Shown: piece by piece, positions 10,527 to 49,908 of the stretch
Position numbering within the stretch: the first letter of the stretch is position 1
Layout of the letters: every line of letters starts with the position of its first letter
Source of the DNA: Metabacillus sp. KUDC1714
Lineage (GTDB): Bacteria > Bacillota > Bacilli > Bacillales > Bacillaceae
Direction of reading: 5' to 3'
NCBI RefSeq assembly: GCF_014217835.1
Contig: NZ_CP055263.1
Location: forward strand, 4,591,501-4,655,500
DNA length: 64,000 bases
The notes under the pieces: model-generated
The model's input: the letters and a program-made list of their open reading frames with translations, nothing else
What the model was told of the DNA's origin: nothing
The model's database searches: none
Translations under genes and position numbers: made by a program

Positions 10527-11305
10527 ATAATGTTATAAGAGATATTGAATTTTGGCGATTAGTTGCCGGATACATCTTCATTTTATTACTAATCGTATTT
10601 GTAAAATGGCGTGGCCTAAAACGTGAAAAACGAATTATCATCTCCACAGCAAGAATGACGATTCAATTGATTTTAGTAGGATATATTCTTACATATATAT
10701 TTAAACAACCAAATCCTTTTCTTATTACATTAATCGTTTTATTAATGCTTTTTTTTGCTGTCTATAATACATATAAACAAGTAGCATTACCAATTAACAA
10801 AAAACTAAAGAAAATTATTGCTATTTCCATGATATCTGGTTCATTGGTTACACTCATTTACTTTAATTTTGTTGTTATCCATTTTCAACCTTGGTATGAG
10901 CCACAGTATCTAATACCAATTGCAGGGATGATTATTGGCAATTCTATGACAGGAATTACTCTAGGTGTTAAGAACTTAGTTGAAGGGATCCAAAGAGAAA
11001 AACAGCTAATAGAAGGTGCTTTAATGCTAGGTGCAAAACCAGAGGCAGCAACAAAGACAGTTGTGAATTCTGCATTCGATTCAGCCATATTACCAACTAT
11101 AAATAATTTAGTGGGTATGGGAATTGTTTTTTTACCTGGTATGATGACTGGGCAAATATTAGCAGGGATTAGTCCTTTAATTGCAATTGAATATCAAATT
11201 GCGGTTCTTTTAGGAATTACCGGTAGCGTTGCGTTAACAGTGATGATCTTTACGCATTTCGGGTATAGGACGTTTTTTAATGAAAAGGCACAGTTTATGG
11301 ATTAA
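10523..11305 (+). CDS. fetB: FetB-like metal exporter permease (UPF0014)
   Basis: 260 aa with about seven hydrophobic segments. The UPF0014 core is clear: PIAGMIIGNSMTGITLGVKN (about 132-151), a coupling-type loop IEGALMLGAKPEAATK (about 162-177) and VFLPGMMTGQILAG (about 202-215). The ATG lies inside the end of the ATPase gene, so the two are coupled. It probably forms the membrane channel of an iron or metal exporter. Confidence 0.9.
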   Translation: MNNVIRDIEFWRLVAGYIFILLLIVFVKWRGLKREKRIIISTARMTIQLILVGYILTYIFKQPNPFLITLIVLLMLFFAVYNTYKQVALPINKKLKKIIAISMISGSLVTLIYFNFVVIHFQPWYEPQYLIPIAGMIIGNSMTGITLGVKNLVEGIQREKQLIEGALMLGAKPEAATKTVVNSAFDSAILPTINNLVGMGIVFLPGMMTGQILAGISPLIAIEYQIAVLLGITGSVALTVMIFTHFGYRTFFNEKAQFMD

Positions 11306-11338
11306 TAATAAAATCCTCTCAGGAAATTTTTATTAATT

Positions 11339-11373
11339 ACATCCTTACTCTGTTATAGTAAAAGTAAGGATGT
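11339..11373. terminator. Hairpin after fetB
   Basis: A stem ACATCCTTACT / AGTAAGGATGT downstream of fetB. No strong T run follows, so termination efficiency is uncertain. Confidence 0.45.
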
Positions 11374-11489
11374 TCAATAAGGTTTTGTTAAAGAGAAGAC
11401 GAGCAAGTAAACTAATAATAGATATAACAGAAAAATAGGATAAAATGCTAAATTAGATTTTACCTGACAACAAAAGGACGTGTTTAACT

Positions 11490-12131
11490 ATGATTACTGA
11501 GAAAAAAGTCACCCTTTATTTTGTGAGACATGGGGAAACTCAATATAATGTTGAAAAGCGAATGCAAGGTTTTTGTGATTCTCCGCTTACTGAAAAAGGT
11601 ATTTCACAAGCAAAATCAGTTGGAAAAGGTTTATCAGATATCAACTTTAAAGCTGCTTACTCTAGTGACAGTCAGAGAGTTATTGATACAGCCAAATATG
11701 CTATTGGAGAACGGGATATTCCGTTAACTATTGATAAACGACTCAAAGAAATGAATTTTGGTGTTTTGGAAGCGTTAGTAGAAGAGGAAATTCCAGCTTT
11801 ATACGGCAATGTACTTGAAACTTTATTCAGCTTAGATTTAGATGCTTGTGCTCCAGAAGGCGAGACTTATGCACAACTTTTTGCAAGAACTGAAAATGCA
11901 ATTGATGAAATAGTTAAAATGCATGCTTCCGAGGGAGGAAATATACTCATCTTTTCTCATGGAGTAACAATTGGCAATTATATCGTACAAATAACAAAAA
12001 GCAGCGAATTTGCGGTACATGAAAATTGCAGTGTTTCTGTTGTCAGATACATGAATGGTCAGCCTCAAATTGAAATTATTGCTGATACTTCTTTTAGAGA
12101 AAAAGGTGGTCAGTGCTTAACTAATGGTTAA
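11490..12131 (+). CDS. Histidine phosphatase family protein
   Basis: 213 aa. The N-terminal phosphohistidine motif YFVRHGETQYN (catalytic His in RHG) is present, with SSDSQRVIDTA, KEMNFGVLEAL, and the second catalytic His in IFSHGVTIGN near residue 155. This is the phosphoglycerate-mutase-like fold used by many small phosphatases. Substrate cannot be predicted and it is not necessarily glycolytic. It is followed by a terminator, so it appears monocistronic. Confidence 0.9.
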   Translation: MITEKKVTLYFVRHGETQYNVEKRMQGFCDSPLTEKGISQAKSVGKGLSDINFKAAYSSDSQRVIDTAKYAIGERDIPLTIDKRLKEMNFGVLEALVEEEIPALYGNVLETLFSLDLDACAPEGETYAQLFARTENAIDEIVKMHASEGGNILIFSHGVTIGNYIVQITKSSEFAVHENCSVSVVRYMNGQPQIEIIADTSFREKGGQCLTNG

Positions 12132-24249: not shown

Positions 24250-25790
<1,541 letters not shown>

Positions 25791-43400: not shown

Positions 43401-45693
43401 ATTCCCTGCTATCAAACGAACCACGTTTAATGTTATATGTGTCAGCCCCACTTATAGTAGACCATGTTAATATAACCTGGTTATCACCTGCAGTTGCTTC
43501 AATTCCACTTGGAATGGCTGGTACTCCATTCCCTGGCATACCAACTGCGCTTATAGGATTGGAATTTGTACTAGTAGTTGTTTCGTTTTTTGCAGCTACA
43601 ACATAGTAATACCTCTCCCCATTTGATATTTCAGTATCAGTATAGTTCGTTTCCGTTACCCCACTTTTAATCATTTCATAGGACATTCCCTTTTCCTTAC
43701 TGCGTAAGATTTGGTAGGATGTTGCCCCTTTAACTGATGCCCAATTGATTGTTACCTCTCCATGGCCATCACTTGCTGACAATCCGGTTGGAGCTTGAAG
43801 TGGAGTCACAGGTGACGCACTTACTTCTTTAGAATTCGTGCTCTCTCCTCCAATATTTTCTGCCGTTACAACATAATAATAATTCGTCCCATTTTCTAAA
43901 CCAGTATCACGAAAGTTAGTTCCCTCAATATTGTCAGCAATTGTCTGATATGGTCCTTCTTTTTCTGTACTTCGTTTAATAGTATACGTTTCTTTTGGAC
44001 CGGCATTATTTTCATCGATGCCAAGTGCCCATTTGACTGACTCATCAATCAACTTCCAACCGTTTTCTGTCACGAAACCTTCCTGGCCCGCAAATAAAAA
44101 TGTAGCTACTTGACGTGCTGGTACAGGATCACCCTTCATATTTTTAGAACCCTTTTCATACGCAAAAATCGTTGCTTTGCTGTCATCATCTTCTGCAGTT
44201 GCAATCACGATCGCTTCATCAGAAGGTGCACCAAAATTGACTTTACCAGGTTGAGTGTAAACATCGATCATGCCACTTAGACCAGCAGCAAGTGGATGGT
44301 TACTCAATTTAATATTAAATGAGGTTTGGTTATCAAAGCTTCCAAATGCTCCAGAAGTAGATGCACTCAAACTGACATCATCTAAGACATAAGGTTCTGC
44401 ATATATAACTGGTACAGGGGAATTCATGAATTTTTTCCCAATATAGCTTGAGCCTGAGGATTCTCCAATAAATACTAAATCATAAATAGGTGCATCTTCA
44501 GTTTTTACTTCGTTATCCTTTTTAAAAGAGACAGTGTATCCAAGTGATTCTAAATGATCAATCGTTTTTTCATCAGCAGTAGTCCCTGTACCCACAAATA
44601 AAATCGACTTTGTTTGACCAGATGTTTTCCAGCTCAAATCAATCTGACTATCTCTAGGGAGAACCGTTAGATCGATTGGAGGTAAAGGTGGATTTGGTAT
44701 TTCAGTTGGTGTAACACTAACCTGGTTTGAAAGTTTACTTTCTCCGACTGAATTTACAGCAGAGACAACATAATAATAGGTTTTATTATTTACTAGCTTA
44801 CTATCGACAAAGCGTGTCTCTGTTATGTTTGTAGCAATAACTTCATAGGGTCCGCCATTATTCGTACTTCTCTTGATATTATACGAAGAAGCACCTTTGG
44901 CAGGGATCCAATTTAGTTCAGCTACTTGATCACCGAATATTGCTGATAAGCCCTTTGGTGAATCAGTAGGTTCAACAAATACTTGTAGATTGTCCCAATA
45001 CAAATCCCCAACAGATGATCCAGCCGTTTGCGCTTCAATTGCATCTAAACGATCAACCGCTTGGTAAAAGGGAATGTTACCTGTATATTTGCCATTAATA
45101 TAGATGTCTGCTGAATCATTCACTACATCGACTAATAGTTTTAAGTGATACCATACATTTGATTCTAATGGAATATTATTCTCACCATCATAAGAGAGTT
45201 GTTTAAAAGCTCCATCACTCCCCTTATAACCAAGGTTTCCGCCTGAAACCTCAAGAATTATGCCTGATTTTCCATGTTCTTTATCTTCTAGTCGTAAGGG
45301 ATATGAATTCCCTACTGCTTTTGGTTCCATCATAGTTAATTCAATTACAAAACTCCCAGCTTGTTGATCAAATGTTTTTGTAACAATTGTTCTAGCTCGT
45401 TTAGACGAACCACTATCATTATCAAATACTCGTAACCCTCTAGCAGAAGTGTTGCCTATAGAATCAACGGGTACATCGTCAACAAATACAGCGCTTGTTT
45501 CTTCAGTAACTCCCTCTTGTGAGGCACTATGAATATACCCAGCTGGTAAACTTCCAACTGTTTCATTCTCGAAATCATCACTAATAATAGAATTTACAGC
45601 TGGTTGATCAACTGTTGCTGCGAGGCTGACTCCACTCTGAAAAATTGGAAATAGTAGTATTAAGCATAAAAATACACACATAAATTTTTTCAT
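40444..45693 (-). CDS. Pectin methylesterase (CE8) - pectate lyase (PL10) fusion
   Basis: 1749 aa, secreted. Order: signal peptide 1-26; LamG-like beta-sandwich about 35-240; Fn3 244-329; a second Fn3 whose strands (338-357 and 568-629) are split by an inserted alpha/beta domain (about 362-560, starting SILFVGTGTTADEKTIDHLE); Fn3 632-718 and 725-811; CE8 pectinesterase 813-1105 with Gln924, QDTLY (Asp947), GDVDFIFG (Asp968) and GRPW (Arg1025); two Ig-like domains (about 1117-1290); PL10 lyase about 1366-1690 with DNNATTNE and ARSYEHPSLSG. One chain can therefore remove methyl esters and then cut the polygalacturonate. There is no sortase motif. Confidence 0.9.
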   Translation of the reverse strand: MKKFMCVFLCLILLFPIFQSGVSLAATVDQPAVNSIISDDFENETVGSLPAGYIHSASQEGVTEETSAVFVDDVPVDSIGNTSARGLRVFDNDSGSSKRARTIVTKTFDQQAGSFVIELTMMEPKAVGNSYPLRLEDKEHGKSGIILEVSGGNLGYKGSDGAFKQLSYDGENNIPLESNVWYHLKLLVDVVNDSADIYINGKYTGNIPFYQAVDRLDAIEAQTAGSSVGDLYWDNLQVFVEPTDSPKGLSAIFGDQVAELNWIPAKGASSYNIKRSTNNGGPYEVIATNITETRFVDSKLVNNKTYYYVVSAVNSVGESKLSNQVSVTPTEIPNPPLPPIDLTVLPRDSQIDLSWKTSGQTKSILFVGTGTTADEKTIDHLESLGYTVSFKKDNEVKTEDAPIYDLVFIGESSGSSYIGKKFMNSPVPVIYAEPYVLDDVSLSASTSGAFGSFDNQTSFNIKLSNHPLAAGLSGMIDVYTQPGKVNFGAPSDEAIVIATAEDDDSKATIFAYEKGSKNMKGDPVPARQVATFLFAGQEGFVTENGWKLIDESVKWALGIDENNAGPKETYTIKRSTEKEGPYQTIADNIEGTNFRDTGLENGTNYYYVVTAENIGGESTNSKEVSASPVTPLQAPTGLSASDGHGEVTINWASVKGATSYQILRSKEKGMSYEMIKSGVTETNYTDTEISNGERYYYVVAAKNETTTSTNSNPISAVGMPGNGVPAIPSGIEATAGDNQVILTWSTISGADTYNIKRGSFDSREYEVVATNVHLTSFQDVNVTNGETYDYVISAVNEKGESFESSPIAVTPAKVTIVAKEGGDFKTVQEAIDAAPDNSSKRHVIYLKDGEYREKITIPKSKTNLSLVGESKEGTVLVYSDNANTLGPDGNPLGTSKSSSIFIYSNDFIAKNLTIQNDSGQGTGQAVAAYVQGDRAYFENVKFLGFQDTLYTHLSRQYYQGCYIEGDVDFIFGPATAVFEDCQIHSKRDGGMLTAASTPQDSKFGYVFLNSTITADGGVEGVRFGRPWRPYSSVTFINSEIDASIASDGWDNWGNEGNEKTARYSEYNSKGVGANPKERDPWTKQLTPEEANQYTVQNILKGTDGWDPTRIGIIPLSDIAPPTITIDQKDAFVNKAEFTITGIVNKEAIVSVNEKEISLQEDFKFNTTVQLNEGLNIITVQARDTDGNRSIPSVVKVVYDHVKPVITVDEHKLEKNGNHYNTIYNPFPLTGKLSEAGTILVNKKAIQASADYTFNSNVDLEPGLNTITLTAVDLAGNESEPVVFKIVPKGNAVPDGPINIIKSEATSPNTVEVTFNSKLKNFNSSDIELQTATNDWADLDPNLKPNMTVESISTRVNKDKQTVAVIKTKEVFNTDGTITKQLNEDPYDIPYLNAAYYTGNKENDRKQADALLSWQMDHGGWYKNMEDKYNRPWDGQEPKSEMYTPEHGELGVIDNNATTNEILFLALMYKETGDIRYKDSVLKGIHYLLEAQYDSGGWPQVYPARGNYSDYVTYNDNAMVRVMNVLTMVSQKKFPFNSDIVNKELSEQTKLSLNHGVDYILKSQIKVNGELTAWCAQHDPVTYEPKEARSYEHPSLSGSESVGVVQYLMSLPNPSIEIQSAIDGAINWFEEAKIEEMKYVSGDPAGQYFYPDSASNTWYRFYEIGTNRPIFSGRDGLIKHNILEIEQERRDGYRWAGEWPQKLLDVTNTTGYYENRVYVKVVDDRSQNATGESLKIGSLFKVEDGFSAQE

Positions 45694-46086
45694 TCATTTC
45701 CTCCCTTATTCATACCGTTCGACTTTTTACTTCTGATTTAATTCGTTAGCACGTCATCTATTCGTATTTATAAGTGACGAGTTTGGAATTTACCCCCTTC
45801 CTTCATCATAAAGCCTTCTGTTATATTTCCTGGCTTCTTCCTACAATACCAAGTTAAGTTATTCTCTAGCATTACGTATACAATCATGCTGTAAGAAACA
45901 TACTATTTATCTCGTCAGAAAACGCTTACAAACTCTTGTCTGATATAAAGATTACTTTTTCATATAAATGATTATTGCTCATTTAATTATGTCTCGATTG
46001 TTCCTTACACTCGGATCCTTTCTAAAATGTTTGGAATTCACGAATAAGGAGCTGGGCAGATGGGCAAAGGTTGGGCACAAAACTTT
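45576..46086. repeat. Duplicated promoter/signal-peptide segment, copy 1
   Basis: About 510 bp covering the first ~39 codons and upstream region of the CE8-PL10 gene. It is repeated in the same orientation at 48037-48555 with high identity by eye. This copy is presumably the parent because it leads into the intact gene. Confidence 0.9.
45917..45930 (-). promoter_or_regulatory. cre-like box, CE8-PL10 promoter
   Basis: The minus strand reads TGTAAGCGTTTTCT, matching the CcpA consensus TGWAANCGNTNWCA except the last base. Carbon catabolite repression is inferred. Confidence 0.6.
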
Positions 46087-46210
46087 TTTATGTCATTTAG
46101 AATACCTCCTGGTTACTGACTTAGCTATCACAGTAGAGTAGTAGGTTCGACAAAGGTGAGATTTCTTAGTTTTACCTTTTTGCAACATTATGTTTATATT
46201 GGGTAAAACA

Positions 46211-46243
46211 TAAGAAGCTTCCTGTTAAAAAGGAAGCTTCTTA
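46211..46243 (-). terminator. Terminator of the SGNH esterase gene
   Basis: TAAGAAGCTTCC pairs perfectly with GGAAGCTTCTTA (9-nt loop), about 85 nt after the stop. Confidence 0.75.
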
Positions 46244-46326
46244 TTTGTTGTTTGAAAAATTGTCTTTTTTGTCTTACTAAAGATTTTCCTCGCAATTATT
46301 CACTGCTAGGGTTTTTAGGCGTTCTG

Positions 46327-47988
46327 TTATCTGTTAAGGAGGATATAAATTTTGTACAGCAGTACTGCTGTATCTTTCTTCGTCATAACAGCCTTTGGAT
46401 TTAGAAGGTTGTTCTCAGTAGGGATAAGTAAGTTTAGCTCAGCTGCAGAAGCCACTTTATTAGCAAGATTAGATGAGACTTCGTCTTTGTCTGCATAAGA
46501 ATCCAGACTTCCCTCAGGTGGCGTAATGTTTTTCTTTAATGCATAAGAGTCAAGGGCTAGGCTGACAGCCATTTCACGTGTTAAAAGCTCAGGTTTTTTA
46601 ACAATGCTTTCGATTCCAAGTTCTGCTGCTTGGATGCCAGTTAATTTTTCAATCATGTCAAGATAATCAACAAAGCGAACATCTTGTTCCGGTTTGAAGT
46701 TTTTACCCCCTACAGGCATAACTCCTAAAAGAACCATTTTCTCAATTTGTTCCCTTTCCCAAAGCGTTTCTGTATCTTTAAATACTTCCTTCATGACTTT
46801 ATGGTAAGGAAGTGTATAATGTGATAAGTCTGGAATCTTATCATTTATTTCTTCTATAATCATCCTTGCCATCTGTTTAGCACCAGCTTCTTTAAAATGG
46901 GTGTTATCATTCAATCCTGAAGGATAATTCGGGTATTCTCCTGGTTTAAGTTGCATAAAGATTGAAGCTGTACCATCATAGCCAAGATAATTGTAATACT
47001 CCAGGCTTTTTGCGTTCAGGTCAAGCAACTGTAGGTTATTTTCAGCTGCAACTTCCTTCATAGCCTGTGTATATGTAGGAAAGCTATCAACAAAGATTCC
47101 CATTTCCTTATTAAAGGTCCGTCTATTCATCGAAGTTAGGCCAACTGGGGTTGCTCCTCGTTGGAGAGCACCTTTTATATAATAATTAGTAAGATATTCC
47201 TTATATTCATCAACGGTAACATATCGGTCGGGATAATTAACAGCTTCATCATTATGTGCAAATTGAATGAATACGTAATCTCCAGGCTTAATATCGACAA
47301 GCAAATCGTTCAAACGCCCCTCATTATATGCGACCTTTGTACTTCGCCCTCCCATTGCACGGTTTTCAACTTTGATTTCTGACTTAAAGAGACGATCAAT
47401 AACTTGTCCCCAACCTGTCATTGGAGCTCGTGCAATTTCATAATTTCGTACTGTTGAGTCACTAATCAAAAAAACAGATGGATTTTCCCCAGCTGTCCGT
47501 TTCGGCAGAGGGTTGATTGAAAGCTGTGAGACACTAGCTATTTCACCCGTAATCTTAAAGTTCATCGCTTCATCAATTAAAGCGTAACGGAATAGCAGGA
47601 CATTCTCACCCTCCTGTTTTACCCATGGTTTTTTAATTTCAACTCCATTGATAAAGACTTTCGTTTTCGCAGCATCAAGAGTGCTAGGTGCAACTAGAGA
47701 AATACTATAATCGTTTACTGGTAAATCTGTACGAAACAGAATCTCAGAACCGCTTATTGAACCATTATTGATTTGAATATCAGATGAGTTTTCTAATCCA
47801 TAACCAATTTTCTCAGAGTAAACTGAAGCTTGATCGATTGTAATATAGTCTTCTTTTTCGCTTCCCCCAAATAAAAATTTAAAGCCAACTTCTGATGTAT
47901 TCTCACCCGCAGAGATTGCGCTTACATTAAAAAGTGCAACACATAAGATAATCATTAATGTTAATAATAATTTGTATAGCCTTCCCAT
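46327..47988 (-). CDS. Rhamnogalacturonan acetylesterase-like SGNH hydrolase
   Basis: 553 aa, secreted (signal peptide about 1-27). A beta-sandwich region (about 30-160, carbohydrate-binding-like) precedes the SGNH domain (about 170-385): nucleophile in FLISDSTVRNY (Ser178), MGGRSTK (Gly213), FAHND (Asn246) and DNTHF (Asp361, His364), as in CE12. The C-terminal 150 residues hold two degenerate S-layer-homology-like repeats (EREQIEKMVLLGVMPVGG; ANKVASAAELNLLIPTENN), which could tether it to the wall. It would deacetylate pectin side regions. Its upstream DNA is a copy of the pectinase promoter. Confidence 0.85.
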   Translation of the reverse strand: MGRLYKLLLTLMIILCVALFNVSAISAGENTSEVGFKFLFGGSEKEDYITIDQASVYSEKIGYGLENSSDIQINNGSISGSEILFRTDLPVNDYSISLVAPSTLDAAKTKVFINGVEIKKPWVKQEGENVLLFRYALIDEAMNFKITGEIASVSQLSINPLPKRTAGENPSVFLISDSTVRNYEIARAPMTGWGQVIDRLFKSEIKVENRAMGGRSTKVAYNEGRLNDLLVDIKPGDYVFIQFAHNDEAVNYPDRYVTVDEYKEYLTNYYIKGALQRGATPVGLTSMNRRTFNKEMGIFVDSFPTYTQAMKEVAAENNLQLLDLNAKSLEYYNYLGYDGTASIFMQLKPGEYPNYPSGLNDNTHFKEAGAKQMARMIIEEINDKIPDLSHYTLPYHKVMKEVFKDTETLWEREQIEKMVLLGVMPVGGKNFKPEQDVRFVDYLDMIEKLTGIQAAELGIESIVKKPELLTREMAVSLALDSYALKKNITPPEGSLDSYADKDEVSSNLANKVASAAELNLLIPTENNLLNPKAVMTKKDTAVLLYKIYILLNR

Positions 47989-48028
47989 TTGTCATCTCCC
48001 CTATTAATATAGTTAAATATCTAACATA

Positions 48029-48160
48029 TCATCTTGTGTCATCATTATTAATAGAATTTATCGTTGGTTGATCAACTGTTGCTGTGAATCCGACTACACT
48101 CTGAAAAATTGGAAATAGTAGTATTAAGCATAAAATACACACAAAAATTTTTTCATTCAT
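48029..48160 (-). pseudogene. Truncated copy of CE8-PL10 signal peptide
   Basis: The duplicated segment carries the pectinase start: from ATG 48160 it reads MNEKIFVCILCLILLFPIFQ and continues 43 codons to a TGA at 48029. From the ATG homologous to the parent start (48156) a one-base loss ends the frame after MKKFLCVFYA. Either way no enzyme follows; the esterase gene begins 40 nt downstream. Confidence 0.8.
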
Positions 48161-48555
48161 TTCCTCCCTTATTCATCCCGTTCGACTTATTACCTCTGAT
48201 TTAATTCGTTAGCACGTCATCTATTTGTATTTAAAAGTGACGAGCTTGGAATTTACCTCCTTCCTTCATCATAAAGCCCTCCTGCTATTTTCTCGGGCTT
48301 CTTTGTACAACACCAAGATAGTTTATCTCTAGCATTACGTCTACAATCATGCTGTAAGAAACATACTATTAACCTAGTTAGAAAACGCTCACAAACTCTT
48401 GTCTGATATAAAGATTACTTTTTCAGATAAATGATTATTGCTCATTCAATTAGTTGTCTCGATTGTTCCTTACACCCAGATCCTTTCTAAAATGTTTGGA
48501 TTTCACGAATTAAGAGCCTAGGCAGATGGGAAAAGGATGGGCACAAAAAGTTTTT
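48037..48555. repeat. Duplicated promoter/signal-peptide segment, copy 2
   Basis: A direct repeat of 45576-46086, with scattered substitutions and small indels. It places a pectinase-type promoter region, including a weaker cre-like box, in front of the esterase gene. Confidence 0.9.
48380..48393 (-). promoter_or_regulatory. cre-like box, esterase promoter copy
   Basis: The minus strand reads TGTGAGCGTTTTCT, two mismatches to the CcpA consensus. It is the duplicate of the box at 45917 and has drifted. Confidence 0.45.
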
Positions 48556-48828: not shown

Positions 48829-48850
48829 CAGACATTCATTTGAATGTCTG
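48829..48850 (-). terminator. Hairpin after the AraC gene
   Basis: CAGACATTCA / TGAATGTCTG, 17 nt downstream of the AraC gene's stop. The T tract is short. Confidence 0.5.
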
Positions 48851-48866
48851 TATAATGAATGTCGAA

Positions 48867-49802
48867 TTATTTTTTTATGTAATTAGTTTGGTCATTAAAA
48901 GATAAAGTAGAAAAATCCCTTATATTGCAATATTTTTTGCGATACTCTAACGGCGTAAATCCTACTTTTTCAAGAAAATATCTGCTAAAATGGGAGCCAT
49001 GCTTAAAGCCGGATTCTAATGCTACATCTAATACAGATAAATTAGGCTCTGTTTCTAGTAATCTTTTCGAGTGATTAAGACGGCAGCTCATTAAAAATTT
49101 CATGATCGTTCCACCCGTTACTTCCTTAAATATATGTGACATATAATACTTACTAACATTAAGACTTTTAGAAATATGATCTAATGATATGTCTTCTTGG
49201 TAATGCTTATCAATCCATGCCGTAATTCTTCTAACATGCAATTCTTTTTCAGTTTCCACATGTATGTGCTTATTTTGATGTGTTTGACTTAGCTCATAAA
49301 TTTGAAACAAAAGCTGAATCACTAAGGTCTGCATTTTGGCTATATAAAAACGACAATTAAGTGTGGAGTCCTCACATTTATCAGCTTTAATCCCTTCACC
49401 TTGCGAAAGTTCAGATATTGCTTGAATTGATTGCTCTATTTGATTCAATAATTTCTGGTCAATATCACGGAATAAGCAATTATTGAACGTTGAGAATGGC
49501 TTTAATAACTCTCGAAATTTCAAGGTCGTGATAATTGGCTCCAATACCTCTGATGAAAAATGAACAACACTTCTTTCATACATTTCTGTCGGAAGAGGGT
49601 TTGCTCTGTGAAGGGTTAAACCGTTTAATAAAATTAAATCGTTTGGTTGTAAATGATAAACCTTGTTTTTAATTAAATAATGACAATTACCACTATGAAA
49701 AAGATAAATTTCAAACTCATTATGTGTATGGAAATCGTGCATGTCCCAATCCAATTCAGGATCACAATTCTTCCGATAAATCGAATATTTACAGATGTTC
49801 AC
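48867..49802 (-). CDS. AraC-family regulator
   Basis: 311 aa from GTG 49802, which follows GGGGTGG; the frame extends to an ATG at 49871 without a ribosome binding site. The N-terminal cupin (HDFHTHNEFEIYLFHSGNCH, then LQPNDLILLNGLTLHRANP) probably senses a sugar. The C-terminal double helix-turn-helix includes ISLDHISKSLNVSKYYMSHI and LDVALESGFKHGSHFSRYF, near residues 220-300. Placed directly after the ABC permease genes, it likely activates the pectin locus in response to imported oligogalacturonate or rhamnose-type sugars. Confidence 0.88.
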   Translation of the reverse strand: MNICKYSIYRKNCDPELDWDMHDFHTHNEFEIYLFHSGNCHYLIKNKVYHLQPNDLILLNGLTLHRANPLPTEMYERSVVHFSSEVLEPIITTLKFRELLKPFSTFNNCLFRDIDQKLLNQIEQSIQAISELSQGEGIKADKCEDSTLNCRFYIAKMQTLVIQLLFQIYELSQTHQNKHIHVETEKELHVRRITAWIDKHYQEDISLDHISKSLNVSKYYMSHIFKEVTGGTIMKFLMSCRLNHSKRLLETEPNLSVLDVALESGFKHGSHFSRYFLEKVGFTPLEYRKKYCNIRDFSTLSFNDQTNYIKK

Positions 49803-49908
49803 GAGTCCACCCCTATCGATATGATATGTTTGGTGTTGAGCCTTCTTGAGTAAAGCCCTGATATGTAACATACTCAGGGCTAATAAGAACCAGCAATTCT
49901 ATTTTGCT

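Follow-up and report, generated by a model that had tools for sequence, protein, structure and literature searches.

How does homologous DNA come to stand upstream of two genes whose products have no Pfam domain in common? The question is raised by a pectin-degradation locus of Metabacillus sp. KUDC1714 (NZ_CP055263.1, positions 4,591,501 to 4,655,500; this stretch of 64,000 nucleotides is referred to as the window), where, read along the minus strand, the genes for an ATP-binding cassette (ABC) transporter and an AraC-type regulator are followed by one copy of a direct repeat (E copy), an SGNH esterase gene, a second copy of the repeat (P copy), the pectinase gene and the gene for a PelZ-like protein (Table 1). 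We consider it likely that the repeat of 515 bp represents a captured promoter. The account developed below, in which a promoter module of permease origin would have been copied to a pectinase and a pectate lyase gene and subsequently to the esterase gene, seems to us probable as a whole.

The repeat upstream of pectinase and esterase

The two copies are joined by a single BLAST match (517 bp in the E copy against 515 bp in the P copy, 90% identity, expectation value 9.5e-195), lie in direct orientation and align in five ungapped blocks of 82-94% identity with a spacing of 2463-2466 bp. A preliminary description of this DNA had placed a direct repeat of about 510 bp, comprising upstream region, ribosome binding site and some 39 codons, before both genes, and the alignment bears this out, with upstream region, Shine-Dalgarno sequence (SD) and about 40 codons being found. 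The copied reading frame is truncated, as had been stated: the pectinase leader ATG at 48156 of the E copy is followed by a stop after ten codons (MKKFLCVFYA*) because of a 1-nt deletion. The end points given earlier are right within a base or two, but the stretch from the E copy to the esterase start extends over 47989-48038 and not over 47989-48030. The esterase ATG lies 168 nt downstream of the leader ATG in the E copy and is preceded by its own SD; an original in-frame fusion of the pectinase signal peptide to the esterase was considered and rejected, as even the undeleted frame stops before the esterase start.

A search of the 5.76-Mb genome, in which the best 40 of 50 candidates were scored, gave four matches to the segment, namely the two full copies and two that span only about 130 bp of its inner part, and among the 21 genomes of the genus searched the window genome alone contains two full copies. 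A genome-wide repeat or mobile element was rejected because two of only four matches are full copies and is also countered by the esterase being the sole open reading frame of at least 100 amino acids (aa) from araC to the pectinase gene. For the distal 128 bp of the P segment and for its linker, a blastn search for their origin in ten loci returned a single 15-bp match.

Table 1. Features of the pectinase-esterase locus, in positions of the window
Feature	Position	Strand	Description
P copy	45575..46089	-	pectinase upstream region, SD (AGGGAGGAAATG) and first ~40 pectinase codons
E copy	48039..48555	-	second copy, 90% identical, directly upstream of the esterase gene
Dead pectinase start in E copy	48124..48156	-	10-codon open reading frame, frameshift
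Probable permease-start fossil, P copy	45768..45806	-	12-codon open reading frame MKEGGKFQTRHL* behind a degraded SD
Probable permease-start fossil, E copy	48231..48269	-	12-codon open reading frame MKEGGKFQARHF* behind GGAGG
Promoter module, P copy	45814..45977	-	nhmmer E 1.1e-21, 75.7 bits
Promoter module, E copy	48269..48440	-	nhmmer E 1.9e-22, 78.3 bits
cre-like site, P copy	45917..45930	.	13/14 to the cre consensus
cre-like site, E copy	48380..48393	.	13/14 to the cre consensus
PelZ-like protein, 763 aa	38042..40333	-	resembles pectate lyase PelZ, under the NCBIfam cut-off
Pectinase, 1749 aa	40444..45693	-	fn3, pectinesterase, glucodextranase B and pectate lyase domains
Hairpin, 14-pair stem	46210..46244	.	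between esterase and P copy; terminator score on the + strand only
SGNH/GDSL esterase	46327..47988	-	N-terminal signal-like stretch; kin to YxiM and rhamnogalacturonan acetylesterase
Terminator-like hairpin	48829..48850	-	between araC gene and E copy
AraC-type regulator gene	48867..49871	-	upstream of E copy

A putative promoter module and its probable home at the permease gene

The inner part of the segment, 130-170 bp long, is also found at other places. In the P copy this module contains TAATCAT-type boxes recognised by eye, a cre-like site, a conserved TCTTACAG..TGATTGTA.ACGTAATG box and a remnant of a permease leader; in the alignment the conserved box centres on TGATTGTAGACGTAATG. Among 150 genomes searched at the DNA level, that of the window included, 17 gave a match, which in 11 cases immediately precedes a yteP-like ABC permease gene at its start, the other six matches being weak (E 9.5e-4 to 0.007) and having no permease nearby. 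An nhmmer profile built from the 11 permease promoters detects the modules of the P and E copies and also the one before the permease gene of M. malikii (L049). The 27-letter conserved box has exactly four matches with up to three mismatches in the window genome (reversed control: none), and the four modules of this genome precede the permease, pectate lyase, pectinase (P) and esterase (E) genes. Clear copies away from the permease were encountered, in the searches made, in the window genome and its sister species Metabacillus bambusae only. Read most simply, this distribution makes the permease promoter the donor of the module.

Further matches are seen in other species of the genus. In M. 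niabensis a second permease start (L048:11189-11559), 73% identical to the permease of the window genome and equipped with its own module, comes after the pectinase-PelZ pair, such that the head of the transporter operon seems duplicated, and a similarly diverged permease is found in another genome (G017, L061). The locus of M. malikii contains a weak second profile match (L049:17703-17805, E 0.001) behind the PelZ-like gene.

The secondary copies of the module carry remnants of donor coding sequence, which is not the picture expected from movement of a promoter alone. In front of the pectate lyase, three collinear permease blocks in their original order come after the module (E 3e-13, 4e-6 and 6e-10, calculated for a subject set of three sequences), and this decayed permease sequence between module and pectate lyase (L004:1602-1865, matching part of L011) is present in the window genome and in M. 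bambusae. Six pectate-lyase orthologues of 81-100% identity were recovered from 60 genomes, with a module within 1.5 kb upstream in these two genomes only. Another genome of the genus (G010:C130:47665-47984, L106) has this pectate lyase in fragments, interrupted by several stop codons. The P, E and M. bambusae segments resemble the leader, SD and first codons of the permease gene to a degree equalled by 2, 0 and 0 of 500 dinucleotide shuffles (z 3.5, 6.1 and 4.1, respectively), and both copies in the window contain a 12-codon open reading frame, MKEGGKFQ(T/A)RH(L/F)*, that is probably the fossil of a permease start.

The surroundings of the pectinase gene in other species add to this. In three genomes, those of M. 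malikii (L049), M. niabensis (L048) and G017 (L018), the pectinase gene comes after the gene for the binding protein of the transporter to which the permease belongs, and is accompanied by a PelZ-like gene behind it in the first two, the L018 contig ending within the pectinase; in three more distant species (L047, L050, L054) no operon genes were found near the pectinase. Because the pectinase follows the binding-protein gene in these three genomes and the segment shows permease traces, the pectinase-PelZ pair probably left the transporter operon with a shortened copy of the operon head.

The original owner of the module, consisting of putative regulator boxes, cre-like site, promoter and leader, would then be the yteP-like permease gene, which heads a pectin/rhamnogalacturonide operon and has an AraC-type regulator gene as its neighbour. 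In the lineage common to M. bambusae and the window genome, this module, together with the permease SD and first codons, would have been copied to two other places, ahead of the pectinase-PelZ pair and ahead of the pectate lyase, where the gap is still filled with decayed permease sequence. Later the pectinase version, with the pectinase SD and 40 codons, would have come to stand before the esterase gene, whereby the E copy would have gained a second fossil, that of the pectinase start. Judged from these remnants, three genes probably entered one regulon through copied promoters with donor-gene ends. The most far-reaching form of this proposal is that one module recruited three unrelated pectin-degrading genes in one lineage and dragged a donor start codon along each time, that the esterase leader holds two nested fossil open reading frames, the permease start and then the pectinase start, and that the youngest recruit, situated between direct repeats, can pop out by recombination, making regulon membership reversible and strain-variable; this we regard as possible rather than probable.

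Age and possible function of the copy upstream of the esterase

M. bambusae BG109 is collinear with the window genome from thrS through the PelZ-like gene at 94-95% DNA identity, and its locus has one segment and no esterase; elsewhere in its genome no esterase of more than 48% identity was present among the matches listed. The distance from araC to the pectinase start is 711 bp as compared with 3,173 bp in the window genome, the shortfall of 2,462 bp corresponding to the spacing of the repeats, and the single segment, itself unbroken, is flanked towards araC as the E copy is and towards the gene as the P copy is. This structure is the expected product of recombination between the repeats and equally a state prior to insertion, and alone it cannot discriminate between the two. 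The state that a 2.5-kb deletion between the repeats would leave, which had been suggested as something to look for in other strains, does exist in this sister species, but may be the ancestral one.

Evidence on the age of the capture comes from the sequence differences. In 511 ungapped columns common to the two copies and the M. bambusae segment, P and E differ at 49 positions, P and M. bambusae at 33 and E and M. bambusae at 44, with private changes numbering 29 for E, 18 for P and 13 for M. bambusae; the excess of E over M. bambusae is significant at p 0.02. In a tree with the permease and pectate-lyase modules as outgroup, P groups with the M. bambusae segment and E stands outside (support 93/85), the two alternative groupings being 3.97 log units worse (approximately unbiased (AU) test, p 0.089); a longer alignment that includes the signal-peptide region gives a support of 84/86 and an AU p of 0.093. 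The concatenated tree kept 17 rows, the distant pectinase rows L047, L050 and L054 being left out, and among the module rows the permease row of G008 derives from the diverged permease that M. niabensis has as a second copy, and the G017 row probably has a similar origin. Columns 135, 172 and 173 are the clearest sites. At column 135 the E copy has a G, as do 13/13 outgroup rows, where P and M. bambusae have a T, and at columns 172 and 173 it has the state common to 9/13 and 10/13 outgroup rows, respectively; sites of the column-135 type had already been noticed in the three-way alignment prior to tree building. An older capture, followed by loss of the esterase in M. bambusae, is the history that these data favour, although we would give it no better than about an even chance.

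Several observations weigh against the account presented here. The AU test leaves the other groupings unrejected, a weak site, column 272, favours a recent duplication from P to E, and without the last quarter of the segment the private changes of E and M. bambusae number 20 and 12 (p 0.22). A mosaic with a break point, as M. bambusae should show after a recombination deletion, does not reach significance (permutation p 0.16). With regard to the origin of the module, the trace of the permease start in the P copy, at z 3.5, is by itself modest, and the search of the 150 genomes, for which the best five candidates per genome were scored, may miss copies. A scan for the sigma-70 consensus identified no site within the P module (12 sites in total against 12.1 expected), and the promoter in the module is for this reason assumed from conservation.

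Instead of an older capture, the pectinase segment may have been copied ahead of the esterase in the window genome after the split from M. bambusae, which would then display the ancestral state; the preliminary description implied such a duplication. This agrees with the restriction of two full copies to one of the 21 genomes of the genus searched, with column 272 and with the room that an AU p of 0.09 leaves, and evolution may have been faster in an E copy whose leader is dead; it is opposed by columns 135, 172 and 173, at which E sides with the outgroup, and by the distribution of private changes, and we consider it unlikely. A recent date for the duplication is not supported, as the branching of the E copy may predate the separation of the two species. 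Alternatively, the E copy and the esterase may have arrived jointly from another lineage on DNA bearing its own variant of the pectinase promoter, with a single crossover at the resident segment leaving direct repeats on either side of the insert, which would be the same capture with a different history. The divergence between P and E, which exceeds that between P and M. bambusae, and the position of E outside the P pair would fit such an import, as would an esterase of 96% identity (P0002) on a 7,558-bp metagenome contig of unknown species, a divergence about that of the pectinases of the two species (95%), and the finding that the other 149 relatives searched have no esterase of more than 49% identity among the matches listed. 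But an older local duplication accounts for the E copy equally well, 72,556 plasmid records yielded 28 matches to the esterase and none with 60% identity or 80% coverage, and the donor, too, would require the same promoter capture, which makes an import doubtful in our view.

Irrespective of its history, the E copy might be a fossil without function that drifts, the esterase being transcribed from elsewhere. The broken leader frame and the highest number of private changes in the E copy, as well as the lack of a recognisable consensus promoter in the P module, are in line with this, yet the E module retains 69 of the 77 columns that permease promoters conserve, as many as M. bambusae (69) and more than P (66), and differences between P and E are rarer in conserved columns (4/76) than outside (15/101), which suggests that the E module still works. 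Besides, the sole minus-strand consensus match touching the stretch before the esterase (47995-47967) extends into the esterase coding sequence, and a terminator-like hairpin (48850-48829) separates the E copy from araC. Loss of function is on these grounds quite improbable. Of the promoter capture by duplication proposed in the preliminary description, one part thereby stands, in that the esterase lies behind a truncated 5' region of the pectinase gene with a module that is as well conserved and scores as high as that of P; the pectinase as the ultimate source of its regulation is unlikely, since the promoter of the pectinase has itself the appearance of a secondary copy, derived from the permease operon.

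Predicted control and relation to known systems

The AraC-type regulator beside the permease (756 aa, HTH_18 and HTH_AraC, L013:10552-12822) corresponds in size and place to RhgR/YesS, of which we take it to be the counterpart, with no NCBIfam equivalog scoring above cut-off. RhgR is reported to control rhamnogalacturonan use in Bacillales, and the genes under its control likewise have an AraC-type regulator beside transporter permeases and pectin/rhamnogalacturonan hydrolases (PMC3870299); membership of the pectinase and the esterase of the present locus in such a regulon is a prediction. We infer that this regulator would activate all four promoters and that CcpA would repress them. The cre-like site is found in M. 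bambusae at 12/14 to the consensus, and a site as good as that of the P copy arose in 31 of 1000 mononucleotide shuffles of this segment. On this view, transcription of the esterase would be predicted to start from the copied module, to be induced by pectin and repressed by glucose, with translation from its own SD.

Removal of acetyl groups is generally thought to aid pectin lyases, and because of this presumed help shared control of the esterase with such lyases would make sense. The esterase matches YxiM over residues 36-346 and has the GDSL/SGNH domain in common with rhamnogalacturonan acetylesterase and YxiM-type SGNH esterases (PDB 1deo, 2o14), from which it differs by an additional C-terminal SLH-like region. 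The SLH match (residues 403-437) lies below the Pfam cut-off in the window esterase, as does this region in P0002, and above it in P0003 and P0004. The 73% identical esterase of Bacillus solitudinis (P0003, L093:9250-10923) follows immediately on the gene for a smaller GDSL esterase (10974-11777), at a distance of some 0.5 Mb from the pectinase of that species. When a native esterase promoter was sought in its flanks, the gene alone matched (76% DNA identity), and none was recovered.

With respect to other elements of the region, five terminator-like sites were found against 1.7 expected. An RNA element in the leaders was rejected, as the three Rfam hits are all under their gathering scores (E 0.09-0.14) and lie outside the leaders. 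A phage-type integrase gene is present at 24702-25745 of the window, about 20 kb from the repeat.

Promoter capture via deletion or tandem duplication is established (PMC11111574, citing Anderson and Roth 1978, Blount et al. 2012 and Li and Bock 2019), and in the cases described there a neighbour's promoter was likewise gained by a rearrangement whose join truncates the donor gene. Those cases are laboratory selections (PMC11111574), whereas the present one is natural, about 10% diverged and nested and concerns a putatively regulated catabolic promoter. The present case seems to belong to this known kind, the seemingly less usual aspect being that three recruitments can be read in one natural lineage and that they are nested. 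No description of it was among the matches listed in a literature search, the coverage of which excludes most subscription journals. Promoter propagation by putative mobile promoters has reportedly been proposed by Matus-Garcia and colleagues in 2012. Such elements likewise appear as homologous promoters before non-homologous genes of one genome, here in four copies, but the present copies carry pieces of donor genes and are read as segmental duplications and not as freely moving promoters.

As a rule, the case for how a gene entered an existing regulon is made from the short binding sites left behind. At this locus the copied pieces are long and retain so much of the coding sequence of their donors that donor, recipient and order can be proposed for three recruitments; one sister species has one of these recruitments and the other lacks it. 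If this account is true, the growth of a regulon by promoter copying and its reversal by recombination would be measurable in this species pair. Taken together, the DNA appears to preserve, in layers, how bacteria add genes to a shared control circuit.

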